Shown piece after piece: positions 5,434-45,989 of a stretch of 64,000 nt of DNA. Source of the DNA: Lichenibacterium dinghuense (GTDB lineage Bacteria; Pseudomonadota; Alphaproteobacteria; Rhizobiales; Beijerinckiaceae). Made by a program: the position numbers and the translations under genes. Positions within the stretch are counted from its first letter, which is position 1. Every line of letters begins with the position of its first letter. The notes beneath the pieces were generated by a model that worked only from the letters and a program-made list of their open reading frames with translations, ran no database searches and had not been told where the DNA came from. The stretch covers positions 186,001 through 250,000 of the forward strand of contig NZ_JAJLMN010000001.1 in assembly GCF_021730615.1 (NCBI RefSeq), in the 5' to 3' direction.

Positions 5434-6891
5434 ATGAAGATCATCCTGCCCTTCATCAGCAACACGCTGATGAACTTCGTCATCGGCCTGCTGCTGGCCC
5501 GCTTCCTCGGGCCCGCCGAATACGGCCGGATGGCGCTCGCGCTGGCGGTCGGCCAGGTGGTCCAGACGCTGATGTTCGACTGGCTGCGGCTCGCCGCCAC
5601 GCGCTTCTATTCCGAGCGGGTGCGGCTGGAGCGCCCCGAACTGCGCGCGACGCTCGACACGAGCTTCGCCGTGCTGATCCTGGCGCTGAGCGCCGTCACG
5701 ATCCTGTTCCTGCTGAGCGGGATCGAGGTGCCCCTGACCCGCCCGCTGGTGGCGCTGGCGATCGGCGCCGCGGTGGCGAACGGGCTGTTCGACTACAACA
5801 CCGCCCTGGTGCGCGCCCGCTTCATGGACGGGCTCTACGCCCGCATCATCATGGGCAAGAACCTGCTCTCGCTCGTGCTCACGGTGGGGGGCGCGTGGTG
5901 GTCCGGCTCGGCCGTGATGGCCCTGGTCGGGCTATGCCTGTCGATGACGGGCTCGCTGCTCCTGTCGCGGCACGCGCTGACCGACGGCGGACTGGGCCCG
6001 CGCGCGGCGGAACGCGGCCTGGCCTCGCAGGCGCTGCGCTACGCCCTGCCGATCGTCATGGCCAACATGCTCTACCAGGTGATCCCGCTGATCGACCGGG
6101 CGCTGATCGCGCAGCGCTTCGGCTTCGCGGAGTCGGGGCAGTTCTCGCTCGCCTACGACCTCGGCATCCGCGTCGTGCTGGCGATCGGCTCGACGCTCGA
6201 CGTGCTGCTGTTCCAGATCGCCGTGCGGTGCGACGAGACGCACGGGCCCGCCCATTCGGCGCGCCAGATCGGCCGCAACATGGGCGTGGTGGTGGCGATC
6301 CTGGCGCCCACCTGCGTGGGCGCCTACCTGGTGCTGCCGTCGTTCCAGCAGCTCGTGGTGCCCCCGGAGTTCCGCGGCCCCTTCGCCGACTTCTTCACCT
6401 ACCTGCTGCCAGGCTTCTTCTGCTACCCGCTGATCCACTACGCGGTGCACCCGGTGTTCCAGATCCGCAAGCGCACGCGGCCCCTCATCGCCACCGCCAG
6501 CGTGGCGGCGCTGGCCAACGTGGGCCTCAGCTTCGCCATGCCGGCGGGCGCCGGCGCTATCGGCTACGCGGTGGCCCTGTCGGCGGCGCTGGGCTCGGGC
6601 CTGCTGGCGCTGATCGGCGCCGCCTCGCTGGTCGGCGCCTCCTGGCCCGCGCCGCGCGACCTCGCCGTCACCCTGCTCGGCTCGCTCGCCATGGCGGGCG
6701 CCGTGCTGCCGCTGCGGGGCATGGCGCCGGGCCTGCTGACCCTCCTCGTCGAGGTCTCGACCGGCGCGCTGGTCTACGGCGCGGTCGCGGGCGCCTTCGA
6801 CCTCGCGGGGCTGCGCAGCCTCGCGCTCGACCACCTGCCGGCGCGCTGGCGCCGCCCCGTCGCTTTACCCGGCGTTGACCACGTCGCTTAG
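5434..6891 (+). CDS. Polysaccharide/lipid-linked oligosaccharide flippase, MATE-like (Wzx type)
   Basis: This 485-residue polytopic inner-membrane protein has roughly 12-14 hydrophobic segments from residue 5 to residue 470. The N-terminal pattern FISNTLMNFVIGLLLARFLGPAEYGRM is the hallmark of the oligosaccharide flippase (Polysacc_synt) family, in which Arg and the GPxxYG turn follow the first helix. Such proteins move lipid-linked sugars across the inner membrane for capsule, O-antigen or exopolysaccharide synthesis. No glycosyltransferase genes stand next to it, which is unusual for a wzx gene. An L,D-transpeptidase gene follows after 116 bases, so an envelope role is likely. Confidence 0.8.
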   Translation: MKIILPFISNTLMNFVIGLLLARFLGPAEYGRMALALAVGQVVQTLMFDWLRLAATRFYSERVRLERPELRATLDTSFAVLILALSAVTILFLLSGIEVPLTRPLVALAIGAAVANGLFDYNTALVRARFMDGLYARIIMGKNLLSLVLTVGGAWWSGSAVMALVGLCLSMTGSLLLSRHALTDGGLGPRAAERGLASQALRYALPIVMANMLYQVIPLIDRALIAQRFGFAESGQFSLAYDLGIRVVLAIGSTLDVLLFQIAVRCDETHGPAHSARQIGRNMGVVVAILAPTCVGAYLVLPSFQQLVVPPEFRGPFADFFTYLLPGFFCYPLIHYAVHPVFQIRKRTRPLIATASVAALANVGLSFAMPAGAGAIGYAVALSAALGSGLLALIGAASLVGASWPAPRDLAVTLLGSLAMAGAVLPLRGMAPGLLTLLVEVSTGALVYGAVAGAFDLAGLRSLALDHLPARWRRPVALPGVDHVA

Positions 6892-7007
6892 CCTTCGATT
6901 CAGTTTATCGGCTCCGTAACCATGGTCCGGGATAGTTAATACTGCGCGGCATTCGAGGTGTATTGTCTGGATCTGGAAGATCTCCCCTTCACTCCGGACG
7001 ATCCACG

Positions 7008-8024
7008 ATGAAGCGTTTCGCTGTTTCGAGCGGCTGGGTTTTGCTGGGCCTGACGGCGCTGTCGGCCGCCGCGCCCGGCCCGGCCCGCGCGGGCCAATAC
7101 GTGCCCCACGCCGTGGGCATCCCCGGCATCGGGCCGGGCACCGGCGTCGACGTCTACATCCCCAACCCCGACGAGCAGACGCCGATCGCCTGGTCGCAGG
7201 GCACCGAGCCCCCGCCCCCGCAGGGCGACTACGGCGGCGGCACGCTGCAATACATGATCACCGGCAACGAGAGCCGCCCCGTCGCACATCCGCGCATCCC
7301 TCCGCCCTACTTCCCGGCGCGCGTCGCCCCGGTGGACGGCCCCGACGGCCGCAGCGCGCTCGCGACCCACGCCCGGCCGCCCGAGACCGCGGGATACGGC
7401 GCCGGTTACGCCGCCCCGGCCTATCGCGCCCGCGCCCCGCGCGGCTACGACAGCGTCGGGTTCGGCGCGGCGGGGCCGCAGTCCTACGGCTACGGGCGCC
7501 GCGCCGCCCCCGCGGCGTACCCTCCCGCGGGTTACGCGCCGGCCGCCTACGCTTCGGTCGAGCCCCCGCGGGCCGAGATCGACCCCATCTATCGCCGGCA
7601 GGAGGTCGCCTACGCGGGCGGGCAGGCCCCCGGCACCGTGGTGATCGACACGAGCGCCAAGTTCCTCTACCTCGTCGAAGGCGCGGGCCACGCGCTGCGC
7701 TACGGCATCGGCGTCGCGAAGCCGGGCTTCCTGTGGTCGGGGGCCCACACGATCACGCGCAAGGCCGAGTGGCCGGACTGGACGCCGCCCGCGGAGATGC
7801 TCGGCCGCCGGCCGGACCTGCCGCACCACATGGACGGCGGCATCGCGAATCCCCTCGGCGCGCGCGCGATGTATCTCGGCTCGACGCTCTACCGCATCCA
7901 CGGCACCAACGAGCCGGACACGATCGGCACCAACGTGTCGTCCGGCTGCATCCGGCTACGCAACGAGGACGTCACCGACCTCTACGACCGGGTCCGGGTC
8001 GGCACGCGCGTCGTCGTGATGTGA
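7008..8024 (+). CDS. L,D-transpeptidase (YkuD/ErfK family) with long proline/alanine/tyrosine-rich region
   Basis: The ATG at 7008 was preferred over an upstream TTG at 6963 because it puts a clean signal peptide (residues 1-26, ending PARAG) at the N terminus. The protein has 338 residues. Residues 30-200 are low-complexity and rich in Pro, Ala, Gly and Tyr. The catalytic YkuD domain occupies about residues 205-338, with HGTN at 298-301 and the SSGCIR motif that holds the nucleophile Cys314. The family forms 3-3 peptidoglycan cross-links or links proteins to peptidoglycan in the periplasm. The disordered spacer may reach across the periplasm, which is an inference. Confidence 0.88.
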   Translation: MKRFAVSSGWVLLGLTALSAAAPGPARAGQYVPHAVGIPGIGPGTGVDVYIPNPDEQTPIAWSQGTEPPPPQGDYGGGTLQYMITGNESRPVAHPRIPPPYFPARVAPVDGPDGRSALATHARPPETAGYGAGYAAPAYRARAPRGYDSVGFGAAGPQSYGYGRRAAPAAYPPAGYAPAAYASVEPPRAEIDPIYRRQEVAYAGGQAPGTVVIDTSAKFLYLVEGAGHALRYGIGVAKPGFLWSGAHTITRKAEWPDWTPPAEMLGRRPDLPHHMDGGIANPLGARAMYLGSTLYRIHGTNEPDTIGTNVSSGCIRLRNEDVTDLYDRVRVGTRVVVM

Positions 8025-8061
8025 GCGGCTTCCGCCCCGCGCGGCGACGGCCTAAGCTCGA

Positions 8062-8088
8062 CCCGCCCCGCTGACCCGCCGGGGCGGG
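8062..8088 (+). promoter_or_regulatory. Hairpin overlapping the ribosome binding site of the DUF1330 gene
   Basis: CCCGCCCCG at 8062-8070 pairs perfectly with CGGGGCGGG at 8080-8088 around a 9-nt loop. The right arm contains the GGGGAGA-like Shine-Dalgarno segment (8084-8090) for the ATG at 8103. It could act as a terminator for the preceding transpeptidase gene, or it could mask the ribosome site on a read-through transcript. Confidence 0.35.
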
Positions 8089-27250: not shown

Positions 27251-27268
27251 TGTCAACTTGCCTTGACA
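27251..27268. promoter_or_regulatory. PpsR/CrtJ box upstream of bchG
   Basis: TGTCAACTTGCCTTGACA is an exact TGT-N12-ACA palindrome, the known PpsR/CrtJ recognition pattern. It lies 30 bases upstream of the bchG ATG. On the bchG strand it contains TTGACA, a possible -35 element, so repressor binding would block sigma factor access. Confidence 0.85.
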
Positions 27269-33567: not shown

Positions 33568-38239
<4,672 letters not shown>

Positions 38240-40419: not shown

Positions 40420-41223
40420 ATGCCGCACGTCAATTTCACGCAACAGATCGACATACCGGAGGTGTTGTTCATCCTCTTCGTGCTGTTCTTCCTGGGGCTC
40501 GTCTACCACATCCGCCAGGAGGACAAGCGCGAGGGCTACCCGCTCGAGTCCGACCGCACGGACCGCACCGGCGGGCGCGTCCAGGTCGTGGGCTTCCCGC
40601 CCATGCCCAAGCCCAAGGTGTTTCTGCGCAAGTTCGGCGAGCCGATCCTGTCGCCCGGCCCGCGCCAGGAGCGGAACCTCGATGGCATCCTGGTGCCGCT
40701 GCACGACTTCCCCGGCTCCCCCTACGTGCCGACCGGCGATCCCCTGGTCGACGGCGTCGGCCCCGCCTCCTACGCGCTGAAGGAGGAGGTGCCGGACATG
40801 ACCTGGCACGGCGAGCCCAACATCCGGCCGCTGCGCAAGCTGCCCGAACACGCCGTGGAGGGCACCGAGACCAGCCCCATCGGCATGGACGTGGTGACGC
40901 GCGACGGCGTCCGGGTCGGCACCATCGCCGACGTGTGGATCAACGTGGCGGAGCTGTTCGGCACCTACTTCGAGGTTCAGGTCGCGCCGAAGTTCGGCGG
41001 CGACCGCGCCATCCTGCCCGTCGCCTTCGCGGACATCAGGCCGCGGGACAAGATGGCCGTGATCGGCATGCTCACCGCGCCGCAGTTCGCCCGCGTGCCG
41101 CGCCTCGCGGTGCCGGACATCATCAACTTCCGCGAGGAAGACCGGATCAACGCCTATTACGCGGGCGGCTACCTCTACAGCAAACCCCTGGAGAAGGGCC
41201 TGGAGTCGGGAGGGAAGGCATGA
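40420..41223 (+). CDS. puhA: Photosynthetic reaction centre H subunit
   Basis: The 267-residue protein has one N-terminal transmembrane helix (about residues 12-31, IPEVLFILFVLFFLGLVYHI), followed by the cytoplasmic PRC-barrel domain. The RQEDKREGYPLE sequence just after the helix and the KFGGDRAILPVAFADI segment match PuhA. It caps the L/M core, which is encoded elsewhere, and shapes the proton path to QB. It lies 18 bases after lhaA, and its stop overlaps the puhB start. Confidence 0.95.
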   Translation: MPHVNFTQQIDIPEVLFILFVLFFLGLVYHIRQEDKREGYPLESDRTDRTGGRVQVVGFPPMPKPKVFLRKFGEPILSPGPRQERNLDGILVPLHDFPGSPYVPTGDPLVDGVGPASYALKEEVPDMTWHGEPNIRPLRKLPEHAVEGTETSPIGMDVVTRDGVRVGTIADVWINVAELFGTYFEVQVAPKFGGDRAILPVAFADIRPRDKMAVIGMLTAPQFARVPRLAVPDIINFREEDRINAYYAGGYLYSKPLEKGLESGGKA

Positions 41224-41924
41224 GCGAGTTCAGCGACATCCCGCGCGAGATCGGATCGGCCGACCTTCCCGCGGGCGAGACGGTGCTGTGGCGCGGCAAG
41301 CCGGACTGGCGCCACCTCGCCCTCGACGCCTTCGGGGCGCCGTGGGTGGCCTTCTACTTCATCGGCATCGGCGTGTGGCACATGTCGGTCGCGCTGCACG
41401 ACGGCGGCACACGCGCCGAGGCCCTCGCGGAAGGCTCCGTGGTGCTGGCCCCGATGGCGCTGGCGCTGTCGCTCGTGGCGCTGCTGGCCTGGCTGTCGGC
41501 GCGCGCCACGGTGTTCACCGTCACGGATCGCCGCATCATCATGGTCTACGGCGTGGCGCTCCCGGCGCTGATCAACCTGCCGCTGCACGTGGTCGAGACC
41601 ATGAAGGTCCGCCGCGGCTTCGCGGGGCGGGGCGACCTCGCCTTCTCGCTGCCCCAGAAAGGCCGCTTGGCCTTCCACCAGCTTTGGCCCTACGCTCGGC
41701 CCTGGCACCTGTTCCCAGCATCCCCCATGATGCGTTGCGTGCCCAAGGCCGAGGAGGTGAAGGTGATCGTGGCCGGAGCCCTGTGGGCCGCCGCCGAGCG
41801 CGAAGCGCTCCGCCTCGGCCAGACCGTCGACGGCGAGACCGTGGAGATCCCGGCCGTCCCCGTGGCGCCAGCGGCCCAGCCCGGCGTTTTCGGCACGGCG
41901 CGGCCGGCCGGCGCGGCGGCCTGA
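41220..41924 (+). CDS. puhB: Photosynthetic complex assembly protein PuhB
   Basis: The 234-residue membrane protein opens with GETVLWRGKPDWRHLALDAFG, the typical PuhB beginning. Two or three helices follow, then a bacterial PH-like domain around FTVTDRRIIMVYGVALPALIN. PuhB is a dimeric factor needed for reaction-centre assembly in Rhodobacter capsulatus. The ATG overlaps the puhA stop. The C terminus (after residue 205) is Ala/Pro-rich and variable. Confidence 0.92.
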   Translation: MSEFSDIPREIGSADLPAGETVLWRGKPDWRHLALDAFGAPWVAFYFIGIGVWHMSVALHDGGTRAEALAEGSVVLAPMALALSLVALLAWLSARATVFTVTDRRIIMVYGVALPALINLPLHVVETMKVRRGFAGRGDLAFSLPQKGRLAFHQLWPYARPWHLFPASPMMRCVPKAEEVKVIVAGALWAAAEREALRLGQTVDGETVEIPAVPVAPAAQPGVFGTARPAGAAA

Positions 41925-41928
41925 CGCC

Positions 41929-42423
41929 GTGAGCACCGACGTCCTCAAGGCCCTGGCGGCCAATCCCTACCCCGATCCGGACCACCCGCTGCCGAAGCCG
42001 ATCATGGTCGGCAGCGGCATCCTGATGGTGGCCACCGTGGCGTTCTGCGCCTTCGGCCACGCCACCGGCATCGGCCGCACGGCCGAGGCCGCGCCCGTCG
42101 CGGTGGCGAGCCGCGACCTCGTCTTCACCGAGAACGACGACCACACCCTCACGGTGCGCGACGCCGGCCGCGGCGATGCCGTCGTGTCCAACTTCGACGC
42201 CGAGGACGGCGGCTTCATCCGCGCGCTGGTGCGCGGCATGACGCGCAACCGCACGCGCTACGGCGAGCCCGCGGTCGGCGCCTTCCGCGTGTCGCTGTCC
42301 AAGGACGGCGGGGTGTGGCTGCAGGACCTCGGCACACACCAGAACGTCGATCTACGCGCCTTCGGCCCCACCCAGGTGCAGGCCTTCGCGCAGTTCGTGA
42401 GGCCGGAGCAGGGCAAGCGATGA
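41929..42423 (+). CDS. puhC: Photosynthetic complex assembly protein PuhC
   Basis: The 164-residue protein starts at a GTG 4 bases after the puhB stop. It has a single transmembrane helix near residues 24-42 and a periplasmic domain containing the PuhC patterns [18 protein letters not shown] and [14 protein letters not shown]. It supports reaction-centre and LH1 organisation in Rhodobacter. Its stop overlaps the next small gene. Confidence 0.9.
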
Positions 42424-42725
42424 AGCTGGGATCGCTGTTGGGACGCAAGAGCGTGGAGGTCGCCTGCACGCTCGAGATCGAGAACACCTTCGACGCGCTG
42501 CACGCCCACGTCCGCCTCGACGGCGGCGTGGTGGTGAACCCCGGCGACGAGGTGCTCGTGCACGGCGAGCCCGTGCAGGTCCCGTTCGGCGAATCCCGCA
42601 CGCTGCGCCGCCGCGCCACCATCCGCCGCGCCGGGCCGGTCGAGCGGCTGTGGACGCGGATGACCGGCGACTTCGAATTCATGGAACTCTGCGAGTTCAG
42701 CTTCTCGGGGGATCAACTGCGATGA
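42420..42725 (+). CDS. Small conserved photosynthesis-cluster protein between puhC and acsF
   Basis: The 101-residue soluble protein overlaps both neighbours by 4 bases. It opens with [31 protein letters not shown] and has a compact, mostly beta pattern with [15 protein letters not shown] in the middle (both excerpts are from the N-terminal 55 residues). There is no membrane segment or signal. Many alphaproteobacterial clusters hold a small unnamed gene here. Its strict coupling to puhC and acsF suggests a role in the cyclase reaction or in complex assembly. It shows no resemblance I can detect to the auxiliary cyclase subunit BciE or Ycf54, though I cannot rule out remote similarity. Confidence 0.75.
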
Positions 42726-43816
42726 GCGCCGTCGTGTCCGAGCGCGCCGCGCTCACGCCCGCCCCGCCGGCCGTGGCGGCCGACACCACCAAGCTCGCCC
42801 AGGAGGACACGCTCCTCGCGCCGCGCTTCTACACCACCGATTTCGTCAAGCTCGACCGCACCGACGTGTCGAGCGTACGGGACGAGTGGGACGCGCTGAT
42901 CGCCGAACTGAAGTCCGACCCCAACCGACACCACTTCAAGCGCACGGAGGACTGGGACCGCATCGACCTCGCGGCCCTGCCCGACGACCTGCGCCGCGAG
43001 TTCGTCGACTTCCTGGTGTCCTCGCTCACCGCCGAATTCTCGGGCTGCATCCTCTACAAGGAGATGAAGCGCCGCGGCAAGAACGCCGACATCAAAGAAC
43101 TCTTCACCTACATGAGCCGCGACGAGGCCCGCCACGCCGGCTTCATCAACGACGCGCTGAAGGAGTTCGGCATCGGCGTGAACCTCGGCTTTCTCACCAA
43201 GGCCAAGAAGTACACGTTCTTCCAGCCGAAGTTCATCTTCTACGCGACCTACCTGTCCGAGAAGATCGGCTACGCGCGCTACATCACCATCTTCCGTCAC
43301 CTCGAGCGCCATCCGGAGCGCCGCTTCCACCCGATCTTCAAGTGGTTCGAGAAGTGGTGCAACGACGAGTTCCGCCACGGCGAGGCTTTCGCGATCCTCA
43401 TGCGGTCCGATCCGAAGCTGCTGGGCGGCGTCAACAAGCTGTGGATCCGCTTCTTCCTGCTCGCCGTCTACGCGACCATGTACGTGCGCGACCACCAGCG
43501 GCCGGCCTTTCACGCGGCGCTCGGCATCGACCCGACCGACTACGACTACCGCGTCTTCGCCGTCACGTCGGAGATCTCCCGTCAGGTCTTCCCGCTGGTG
43601 CTCGACACCGACGACGCCCGCTTCCGCGCCGGCCTGGAGCGCATCCGCCTGACCTCCGAGCGCATCGCCGCGGCGCGCCGCCAGGGCGGGGCGGCCGGCG
43701 CGCTGAAGCGATACGCCGGCATCGCCGCCAATGGCGCGACCTTCCTGCGGCTCTTCGCCCTGCCGGCCAAGGCGAACCTCCGCCCCGCGACCAGCCACCT
43801 CAAGCCGGTGTGGTGA
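42722..43816 (+). CDS. acsF: Aerobic Mg-protoporphyrin IX monomethyl ester cyclase
   Basis: The 364-residue ferritin-like diiron protein has ligands in two clusters: Glu105 within TAEFSGC with DEARHAG (Glu135, His138), and later [11 protein letters not shown]. It uses oxygen to form ring E of (bacterio)chlorophyll. Its presence, with no bchE in the window, points to pigment synthesis under air. Within the first 40 residues [15 protein letters not shown] is the conserved start. It is the last gene of the bchF-acsF operon; the next gene, puhE, has its own PpsR box 187 bases downstream. Confidence 0.95.
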
Positions 43817-44114
43817 GGGGCGCGGCCGGTCGTCCACCGATCGGCCCGCCTGCCCCCGCATCCGCGCAGGCCGAGGCCCACCGGCTCGGCGACGAGCATC
43901 GCCCTCCCCGCGATGACGCTGGAGAGGGCGAAGCGAGGCACCTGGGCCGGCACGATGGCTCGCGGCCCGTGGGAGATCAGGCGCGCCACTCTGGACGGAC
44001 GCGACTGTCAACCTAACTTGACACTCCACCGGCACCACCGGCATCTTGCCCCGCAGCGGTCGCGGGCCGGGGCATTGTCCCGTCTGACGATCCTCGGCGC
44101 GGGAGAAGCCATCC
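43817..44114. promoter_or_regulatory. Intergenic control region before the puhE fusion gene
   Basis: These 298 bases hold no convincing gene. A PpsR box lies at 44004-44021, with TTGACA at its right arm. A GGCGCGGGAGAA ribosome site precedes the ATG at 44115. In most clusters puhE follows acsF closely, so a separate promoter here is noteworthy. Confidence 0.6.
44004..44021. promoter_or_regulatory. PpsR/CrtJ box upstream of the puhE-cobW fusion gene
   Basis: TGTCAACCTAACTTGACA fits TGT-N12-ACA exactly and has nearly the same arms as the box in front of bchG. It lies 93 bases before the ATG at 44115 and includes a candidate -35 (TTGACA, 44016-44021). Confidence 0.85.
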
Positions 44115-45989
44115 ATGATCGCCTATGTCGGCCCGGCGCTCTTCGCCCTCTTCGTGTGGTGGGCCTCGACGGTCGCCATCATCTACGTGGACAACCTGCC
44201 GCGCCGGACCTTCAAATGGTCGATGCTCGGGGCCACGGCCGTCTTCGCCGTGTCGCTCTACGGCCTCGCGGCCTCGGCGCACGACACCTCCACGGCGGGC
44301 GCCTACTGGGCCTTCACCTGGGGCCTGCTCGCCTGGGGCTGGCAGGAGATGAGCTTCTACATGGGCTTCGTGACGGGCTCGCGCAGGGAGCCCTGCCGCG
44401 AGGACTGCGGCGGCTTCCGCCACTTCGTCCATGCCGTGCAGACCAGCCTCTACCACGAGCTCGCCATCATCGCGGCCGCGGTCGCGGTGGTCTGGCTGAC
44501 CTGGGGCGGGCCGAACCAGGTCGGCACCTGGACCTTCATGGTCCTGTGGTGGATGCACCAGAGTGCCAAGCTCAACGTCTTCTTCGGCGTGCGCAACCTC
44601 AACGAGGAGTTCCTGCCCGAGCACCTGGAGTTCCTGAAGAGCTTCCTGCGCAAGCGCTCGATGAACCTGCTGTTCCCGGTCTCGGTGACGGTGTCGACGG
44701 TCGTCACCGTGCTGGTCGCCAAAGCGGCGCTCGACGACGGCGCGACGGTCGCGGAGCGCGCCGGCTACACCTTCCTCACCGTGCTGATGGCGCTCGCCAT
44801 CCTGGAGCACTGGATGCTGGTGCTGCCCATGCCGGCCGGCGCCATCTGGTCGCCGGGGCTGAAGTCGCGCGGGGAGCGCAAGCCCTTCGAGGTCGAGATC
44901 GTCGTCGGCTTCCTCGGCGCGGGCAAGACCACCTTCCTGCAGCGCAAGCTCAAAGAGGCCGACCCGGCCCTGCGCACGGTCGTGCTGGTCAACGACTTCG
45001 GCGCCCTCGGCCTCGACGGCGCGCTGCTGGAGGGCCGCGGCGCCGACGTGGTGGAGCTCGCCAACGGCTGCATCTGCTGCTCGCTGCGCTCCGACCTCGC
45101 GGCGCAGCTCAAGGAGGTCGTGGCGAAGATGAAGCCCGACCGCGTGCTGATCGAGCCCTCGGGCGTGGCCGACGTGGCTTCCCTCCTGCGCGCCCTCCAC
45201 ACGCCCGAGATCGCGCCCCTCATCAAGGCGCGGCGCCTCTACACGGTGATCGACGCCGGCGCCTTCCTCAGCGACTACGTCCGCATGCCGGACTATTTCG
45301 ACGTGCAGACGCGCCTCGCCCCGGTGTTCATCCTGAACAAGACCGACCTCGTGTCGGCGGGCGAGCTCGCCATGGTGTCGGAAACGCTGCGATCGCAGAA
45401 CCCCGAGGCGCTGGTCGTCCCGGCCCGATACGGCATCCCGGTCGAGAAGACAGACCTCGACCGCTCCGCGCCGGTGGCGGCGCCGGCCGCCGAACCCGAG
45501 GACGCGATCGACCGGCCGAAGCCGCGCGAGGAGGTGGCGCTCGGGCTCGAATCCTGGAGCGCGCCGCTGCTCGGCGACCTCGACCTCGACCGGCTCCGCG
45601 ACGCGCTCGACGCCATGGCGCGCGGCGCGCATGGGCAGGTGATGCGCGTGAAGGGCATCGCCACCTCGGGCAAGGGCTGGGTCAAGTTCGACGTGGCCGG
45701 CGGGCGCGCCAGCGTGGCGGCCCACGTGCCCCAGGGCGACGAGGCCCCGCGGGCCCTGGCGATCGGCTCCGGGCTCGACCGCGCCGGGCTGGCGGAAGCC
45801 TTCCTGGCCTGCACGCCGGACGCCGACCGAGACGCGGCGCGCGCCGCCACCGAGGCCGCGCTCGACCGCGCATTCGCGGTCGCCAAGGGCGACGGGGCCA
45901 GGGCCGGCGTCCACCCGCTCGGCTGCGGCTGCGCCGAGCACGCGCCCGGCATGAGCTGCGAGGGCCTGCCGGCGGTCGCCGCCGAGTGA
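44115..45989 (+). CDS. puhE: PuhE (DUF3623) fused to a CobW/COG0523 G3E GTPase
   Basis: One uninterrupted 624-residue frame has two parts. Residues 1-250 are a polytopic PuhE protein (YVGPALFALFVWWASTV near the start, WWMHQSAKLNVFFGVRNLNEEFLP at about 145-168), a reaction-centre assembly factor. Residues 257-624 are a complete CobW-type metal-chaperone GTPase: Walker A GFLGAGKTT (265-273), the metal-binding CICC (319-322), base-recognition NKTD (408-411), and a CobW_C-like domain. A tail with HPLGCGCAEH and a further Cys615 (600-615) may bind metal. The CobW part would face the cytoplasm. No frameshift or internal stop is seen. The substrate metal is unknown; Mg, Zn or Fe for BchH or AcsF are possibilities only. 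Confidence 0.9.
   Translation: MIAYVGPALFALFVWWASTVAIIYVDNLPRRTFKWSMLGATAVFAVSLYGLAASAHDTSTAGAYWAFTWGLLAWGWQEMSFYMGFVTGSRREPCREDCGGFRHFVHAVQTSLYHELAIIAAAVAVVWLTWGGPNQVGTWTFMVLWWMHQSAKLNVFFGVRNLNEEFLPEHLEFLKSFLRKRSMNLLFPVSVTVSTVVTVLVAKAALDDGATVAERAGYTFLTVLMALAILEHWMLVLPMPAGAIWSPGLKSRGERKPFEVEIVVGFLGAGKTTFLQRKLKEADPALRTVVLVNDFGALGLDGALLEGRGADVVELANGCICCSLRSDLAAQLKEVVAKMKPDRVLIEPSGVADVASLLRALHTPEIAPLIKARRLYTVIDAGAFLSDYVRMPDYFDVQTRLAPVFILNKTDLVSAGELAMVSETLRSQNPEALVVPARYGIPVEKTDLDRSAPVAAPAAEPEDAIDRPKPREEVALGLESWSAPLLGDLDLDRLRDALDAMARGAHGQVMRVKGIATSGKGWVKFDVAGGRASVAAHVPQGDEAPRALAIGSGLDRAGLAEAFLACTPDADRDAARAATEAALDRAFAVAKGDGARAGVHPLGCGCAEHAPGMSCEGLPAVAAE

Follow-up and report, generated by a model that had tools for sequence, protein, structure and literature searches.

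The fused puhE gene and its locus

The 64,000-nucleotide stretch of Lichenibacterium dinghuense DNA analysed here (assembly GCF_021730615.1, contig NZ_JAJLMN010000001.1, positions 186,001 to 250,000; the window) codes for a protein in which PuhE is followed by a GTPase of the COG0523 group. The gene (44115..45989, stop codon included), which lies on the forward strand as do all window features described below, has an ATG start, zero internal stops and a product of 624 residues. Three Pfam domains were defined in this product. The PuhE/DUF3623 domain (PF12291) spans residues 1-253 (44115..44873; E-value 6.6e-109) and is also seen in the structure model. The COG0523/G3E GTPase domain covers residues 260-435 (44892..45419; Pfam cobW, 1.8e-41) and has YjiA as its nearest solved chain in both sequence and fold. 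The CobW_C domain, at residues 479-566 (45549..45812; 4.2e-8), is folded in the model. The first part scores 319.6 bits with the NCBIfam PuhE family TIGR03055 (cut-off 164.05) and its gene has the place expected of puhE in the puh operon, with puhA, puhB, puhC and acsF as neighbours. The proposal of a preliminary description of this DNA, that PuhE and a COG0523 GTPase are encoded as a single chain, is thus borne out by Pfam, by NCBIfam and by a complete in-frame gene. PuhE is regular in purple-type photosynthesis clusters and its action is poorly known. No published description of a PuhE-GTPase fusion was found among titles of the open-licence literature, and a COG0523 survey gave no match for photosynthesis, fusion, Acidiphilium or chlorophyll (PMC2770081).

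The fusion is a genuine and conserved class of protein. A frameshift or stop between the two parts was looked for and the reading frame is unbroken. PuhE, GTPase, linker, CobW_C and tail all have a GC content of 0.94-0.98 at third codon positions. Comparison with Lichenibacterium minor gives ratios of non-synonymous to synonymous substitution rates (dN/dS) of 0.14 for PuhE, 0.085 for the GTPase, 0.26 for the linker, 0.19 for CobW_C and 0.35 for the tail, showing that between these two species the GTPase is more constrained than PuhE. The PuhE-GTPase junction is nearly identical in genome G349, whose open reading frame (ORF) is that of Jiella mangrovi, a species from another family. Third-position GC, dN/dS and the junctions of relatives together rule out a frameshift, a chance read-through or an assembly error.

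The gene order in the window is puhA-puhB-puhC-acsF-puhE. Gene puhA codes for the reaction centre H subunit (40420..41223; TIGR01150, 7.3e-82) and is followed by puhB (41220..41924; NF040894, 172 bits for a cut-off of 110), puhC (41929..42423; TIGR03054, 4e-32) and acsF, the upstream neighbour of the fused gene, which codes for the aerobic Mg-protoporphyrin monomethyl ester cyclase (42725..43816; TIGR02029, 2.8e-154). The magnesium chelatase subunit H gene bchH is found at 33568..37287 (PRK13405, 2045 bits). The photosynthesis genes are split, with pufL and pufM (G000:C1:4629224-4630898) positioned on the same contig ~4.4 Mb away from the puh and bch genes. The fused gene of L. minor is found apart from the puh operon. 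A congener of the window strain, G492 (loci L057/L109), has an unfused PuhE that is 51% identical to that of the window and is followed by hemA, revealing two distinct photosynthesis clusters within one genus.

Conserved motifs and a proposed metal pathway

Alignment places the Walker A motif GFLGAGKTT at residues 265-273 (44907..44933), the CICC metal motif at residues 319-322 (45069..45080) and the guanine-specificity motif NKTD at residues 408-411 (45336..45347). All three are intact and their positions had been correctly identified in the preliminary description. Walker A and NKxD are present in 43/43 distinct complete fusions and CxCC in 41/43. With GxxGxGK[ST], CxCC, NKxD and CobW_C the window protein belongs to COG0523, whose members include YjiA, YeiR, ZigA, CobW and the nitrile hydratase activators. 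The resemblance to this group extends to a His-rich linker between GTPase and CobW_C (9-42 His in 35 of the 43 complete fusions) and to YjiA as nearest solved structure, while the covalent tie to a photosynthesis protein with seven transmembrane (TM) helices and the position of the fused GTPases in a clade of their own, opposite 31 free-standing domains, set the fusions apart. The linker of both Lichenibacterium fusions (residues 442-476 in the window protein, 45438..45542) has no His. These two proteins are the only ones, among 43 tails compared, with a Cys/His tail (H600, C604, C606, H609 and C615; 45912..45959), which is modelled with a predicted local distance difference test (pLDDT) score below 50. 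Its residues, already noted from the window, are 5/5 kept in L. minor even though the tail identity is 75%.

The GTPase part scores below the cut-off of every NCBIfam COG0523 equivalog matched, including CobW (TIGR02475, 104.1 bits versus 332.1) and ZigA (NF038288, 88 bits versus 600). It shares with CobW, the Co(II) chaperone for CobNST, the order GTPase then CobW_C. Furthermore, the CobW partner CobN is related to BchH, and CobN models match the BchH of this locus, an analogy that does not make the fusion a cobalt-type CobW. In addition to the low score, a separate true CobW is present in the same genome (L002, 551.7 bits with TIGR02475, which served as positive control) and has two Cys between Walker A and CxCC, whereas none is found in this interval in the 41 fused GTPases with CxCC that were examined. 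The fusion is therefore ruled out as CobW proper. According to PMC7895991, such an extra Cys pair is present in CobWs and absent from their homologues, of which YeiR and YjiA prefer Zn(II). By the argument of that study, the fused GTPases would be closer to the Zn-preferring YeiR and YjiA.

The AlphaFold2 model (mean pLDDT 85) features seven TM helices, the GTPase and CobW_C. The helices are predicted at residues 2-26, 30-54, 60-82, 100-129, 136-156, 186-205 and 212-236. Positive charge is found in the loops 27-34 (between helices 1 and 2), 83-99 (3-4) and 157-185 (5-6) and also after helix 7, which suggests a cytosolic carboxyl terminus; in this topology the GTPase should face the cytosol. 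The predicted cytosolic loop 3-4 carries the pattern C94-x3-C98-x4-H103-x2-H106 (44394..44432), whose four residues are present in 52/52 fused sequences. Lying on the predicted side of the GTPase, it is a possible metal site. The C98/H103/H106 combination, fixed in all 52 fused rows, distinguishes them from ordinary PuhE, being found in 0/29 of the PuhE forms that carry CobW_C only and in 21/138 other PuhE rows. In other respects the fused PuhE resembles its family, with a full-length domain, the puh gene order and the His-Glu and Glu-His pairs H114-E115 (44454-44459) and E231-H232 (44805-44810) in predicted membrane helices. H114, E115 and E231 are conserved in 187/187 PuhE rows and H232 in 186/187, as might be expected if all PuhE proteins had a metal or pigment site within the membrane. 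DUF3623 is ruled out as a member of the TmAT acyltransferases, the authors of that clan having taken it out (PMC12423673). The best solved match of the model in Foldseek is YjiA (E 1.3e-10).

The photosynthesis gene cluster thus probably codes for a COG0523 metallochaperone anchored in the membrane, its metal being most likely Zn(II), with Fe(II) second. Counting in favour of this reading are the domains and motifs, the single clade and the purifying selection of the fused GTPase, the His-rich linkers, the C98/H103/H106 combination, the lack of a CobW-type Cys pair, the YjiA match and a TGT-N12-ACA site upstream of the gene. The GTPase would first bind Mg-GTP and next load a transition metal onto CICC. 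Buffering of this metal would be the task of the His-rich linker or, in Lichenibacterium, of the Cys/His tail. On GTP hydrolysis the metal would be handed over, next to the membrane, to PuhE, putatively to C94/C98/H103/H106, from where it could pass on to a client in the assembly of pigment or of the reaction centre. CobW_C may be a module that contacts the partner or PuhE, a role in which it could persist without the GTPase. If this holds true, a COG0523 protein would be permanently fixed to its client or scaffold. With the fusion, a connection of metal supply to photosystem assembly becomes open to testing. A role tied to metal in this assembly, as advanced in the preliminary description, is reasonable for an in-frame, constrained GTPase in a puh cluster, but its specific variants (the BchH-CobN analogy, AcsF and the Mg/Zn choice) are weakened.

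Distribution, related architectures and origin

A search of PuhE/DUF3623 proteins for carboxyl-terminal CobW domains, called for by the preliminary description together with their phylogeny, yielded 52 distinct PuhE-GTPase sequences and the fusion is not confined to the window locus. Contig ends truncate two of them, L152 and L153, and the frame of L150 is broken. The 52 belong to a set of 219 distinct PuhE domains in which 29 others are followed by CobW_C only, 3 continue in frame into HemA and 135 lack all of these extensions; the set is enriched for fusions by a scan of named records that was queried with PuhE peptides from fused proteins, and is biased accordingly. The view that known PuhE proteins stop where that of the window continues is thus correct for most, which end mainly ~70 residues or less past the domain instead of continuing with GTPase and CobW_C, but not for the 52, 29 and 3 extended forms. 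The named-record scan gave 67 loci, including Jiella, Fulvimarina, Aurantimonas, Pararhizobium mangrovi, Acidiphilium rubrum, Acidocella and Lichenicoccus. The fusion is found in Lichenibacterium, Aurantimonadaceae and Acetobacteraceae, in at least three families. In the genus of G1148, PuhE is present in 7/13 genomes and is fused in 7/7, one of them on a contig whose first base already falls within PuhE. This genus is taken as Acidiphilium on the strength of three ORFs that match named Acidiphilium loci exactly, including that of A. rubrum ATCC 35905. Fusions are also recorded under unrelated names, Kouleothrix (L127, L153), Ferrovum (L128, L129) and Acidobacteria (L140). These are probably mis-binned contigs, transfer being possible. 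Genome G1106 has two fused puhE copies (L239, L290), G1096 has four Photo_RC matches, and G532 has two puhE copies (L096, L097), one of them without the CobW_C tail.

Several observations weigh against the metallochaperone reading. The first is the share of PuhE-bearing genomes in which PuhE is fused to the GTPase: 2/75 in a sample of the order (397 genomes), 2/100 in the own-family sample (298 genomes), 3/29 in a class sample (385 genomes, 27 of the 29 PuhE matches being above cut-off) and 19/81, one of them cut by a contig end, in the family of G1005 (259 genomes). The latter family was chosen because G1005 is fused and is taken as Acetobacteraceae, the G1005 ORF being that of a record with this family name. 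Every frame with room for a fusion was read individually, and matches cut by contig ends could conceal a few more. Most PuhE proteins lack the GTPase, which indicates that PuhE works without it. Second, three distinct fused sequences, L147 (= L259), L149 (= L256) and L278, have lost CxCC and retain Walker A and NKxD, and the linker has only 0-6 His in 8 of the 43 complete fusions, that of the window among them. Third, the link between C98/H103/H106 and the GTPase counts only 2-5 independent contrasts on the tree (sign test p ~1), so that shared ancestry alone could account for it and correlated evolution is suggestive only. Fourth, the YjiA alignment spans both domains with TM-scores of 0.24/0.45 and a root-mean-square deviation of 18 A, meaning that the relative placing of the domains differs from YjiA or is uncertain. 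Finally, the 6 kb that precede the fused gene of L. minor (L113) contain none of puhA, puhB, puhC and acsF, differently from the window.

The prevalence of PuhE proteins without GTPase, and the Jiella pelagia fusion whose frame is broken in the GTPase, would also be expected if the join were a neutral read-through or sequencing artefact with a functionless GTPase half. This explanation is hardly credible. It is contradicted by the near-complete retention of Walker A, NKxD and CxCC in the complete fusions, by the GTPase dN/dS of 0.085 and by recurrence over families. The J. pelagia frame (L150, ~6001-8065 in a complete genome) reflects a sequence error or decay.

A second architecture, PuhE followed by CobW_C without the GTPase, is represented by the 29 distinct sequences mentioned above. 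Seven of their CobW_C-type tails were compared with Pfam: CobW_C is recovered in six, with E-values from 2e-9 to 0.06 that fall under 0.001 in four cases, and three of the six exceed the gathering score; the seventh (L036) has no Pfam match, yet it aligns with the other CobW_C-type tails. In alignment A3, which has 52 members, cobW is found at E <= 0.001 in 32/52, which equals the number of members with the GTPase, and CobW_C in 33/52, a number that rises to 44/52 with our own models. Two (L041, L157) of 22 CobW_C-only linkers compared are His-rich, which points to GTPase loss from a full fusion. The GTPases of L147, L149 and L278, devoid of CxCC, are a possible intermediate on the way to this loss. 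In three genomes PuhE runs into HemA, the 5-aminolevulinate synthase, in one frame: L011/L110 (G167), L037 (G134) and L038 (G021), the HemA of L038 scoring 667 bits with TIGR01821. A PuhE-HemA fusion is possible; HemA has an internal Met of its own, so separate starts are possible as well. The repeated joins of PuhE to a GTPase, to CobW_C alone or into a HemA frame suggest that PuhE stands where metal supply meets tetrapyrrole synthesis.

These forms bear on an alternative in which PuhE controls the pigment level and the GTPase and CobW_C are a regulatory or docking part that transfers no metal to a client. The HemA frames connect PuhE with the first step of tetrapyrrole synthesis, the GTPase-less forms keep CobW_C as expected of a docking or regulatory module, and the three sequences without CxCC keep the GTPase motifs. 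The title of a study of Rhodobacter capsulatus puhE, known from a reference list, counts in the same direction. Linkers with up to 42 His suggest instead metal storage or carriage, and a purely regulatory role is given a minor though real chance, clearly behind that of the metallochaperone.

The 43 fused GTPases are on one side of a branch that separates them from the 31 free-standing COG0523 domains (Shimodaira-Hasegawa-like approximate likelihood ratio test, SH-aLRT, 99). The CobW_C tree, built on few columns, similarly places 43 fused and 22 tail forms opposite 19 free domains (SH-aLRT 88). Nine further distinct PuhE-GTPase rows, found later, were left out of both trees. Across 150 genomes from the order, no free GTPase scores above 118 bits, compared with 676 for the self match, and identity is 31-44% among the best matches listed. 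The low score and the single fused clade rule out a recent duplication of a free COG0523 gene. On the PuhE tree the full fusion requires 4 changes among 187 rows, or 7 among 219, and the tail-only forms require 7-9, yet the CobW_C domains of the latter group with the fused ones. A single joining event followed by losses or transfers would fit best these trees. The change counts do not establish in which order gains and losses took place, nor do they discriminate one ancestral fusion with many losses from a tail spread by recombination.

Iron, zinc and pigment synthesis

An alternative but unlikely function of the fusion is the delivery of Fe(II), either to AcsF for its diiron site or to the reaction centre for its non-haem iron. 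Gene acsF is found near puhE in 40/46 fused loci with flanking sequence (the 46 include duplicates of two genomes and, of the 6 without acsF, one has only 40 bases upstream), and PMC2770081 mentions an assumed role in iron insertion for another COG0523 protein, the nitrile hydratase activator. However, acsF is as near in unfused loci (29/33), and the 6 kb upstream lack it in L. minor, so that its closeness fails to explain the fusion. BchE, which can replace AcsF, is present in 8/22 fused and 20/48 other chosen PuhE genomes, showing that the fusion does not track reliance on AcsF. The loading of iron into AcsF, one of the roles put forward in the preliminary description, has therefore no special support. 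His-rich linkers are better suited to Zn, Ni or Co than to Fe, which is a further point against iron.

The choice between Mg and Zn for pigments, the other role put forward there, was addressed through the PufL sequence in 22 fused and 8 unfused genomes, leaving out the second puf set of G1096. In the 6 Acidiphilium genomes covered and in G1077, which is from another genus, the PufL motif FHYNP is replaced by FEYNP; these 7 genomes are all fused. We take the Glu at L168 to be a mark of reaction centres with Zn-bacteriochlorophyll. The usual His is found in the 15 other fused genomes, that of the window included, and in 8/8 unfused ones. The fusion is consequently wider than Zn-bacteriochlorophyll and may be a precondition for this pigment rather than its mark. 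That the fusion exists for Zn insertion into bacteriochlorophyll, as in Acidiphilium, is doubtful. The idea draws on fusion in 7/7 PuhE-bearing genomes of that genus, on PufL Glu in 7/22 fused and 0/8 other genomes, and on the route of Zn into bacteriochlorophyll, which a 2025 review describes as uncertain (PMC12654162). The 15/22 fused genomes with the usual PufL His make it unlikely as a sole role, and Zn insertion is also unlikely as the ancestral one. The fusion is nonetheless a concrete candidate gene for the entry of Zn into the natural pigment.

A more speculative and, taken as a whole, improbable extension of the metallochaperone reading is that anoxygenic phototrophs have in PuhE-COG0523 their missing factor for zinc handling, a membrane-anchored chaperone or gatekeeper for Zn(II) that is driven by GTP and acts at the site of pigment assembly. 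Acidiphilium, nested inside the fused clade, would have made it the Zn donor for Zn-bacteriochlorophyll, whereas Lichenibacterium, Jiella and Fulvimarina would use it to keep or place Zn with the pigment metal unchanged.

The interval 43817-44114, which precedes the fused gene, has four inverted repeats, and no Zur-type operator was recognised among them, no Zur motif search being made. A pattern search identified upstream of the gene the palindrome TGTCAACCTAACTTGACA (44006..44023), of the TGT-N12-ACA type presumably read by the regulator PpsR/CrtJ. Such a palindrome is found within ~320 bases upstream of 4/45 fused loci, two of them from Lichenibacterium, and of 2/116 unfused loci, and is thus not general. 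In the window TGT-N12-ACA occurs 12 times versus 2.06 expected, and the TGTCAA-N6-TTGACA form has three sites, at 27251, 30008 and 44006.

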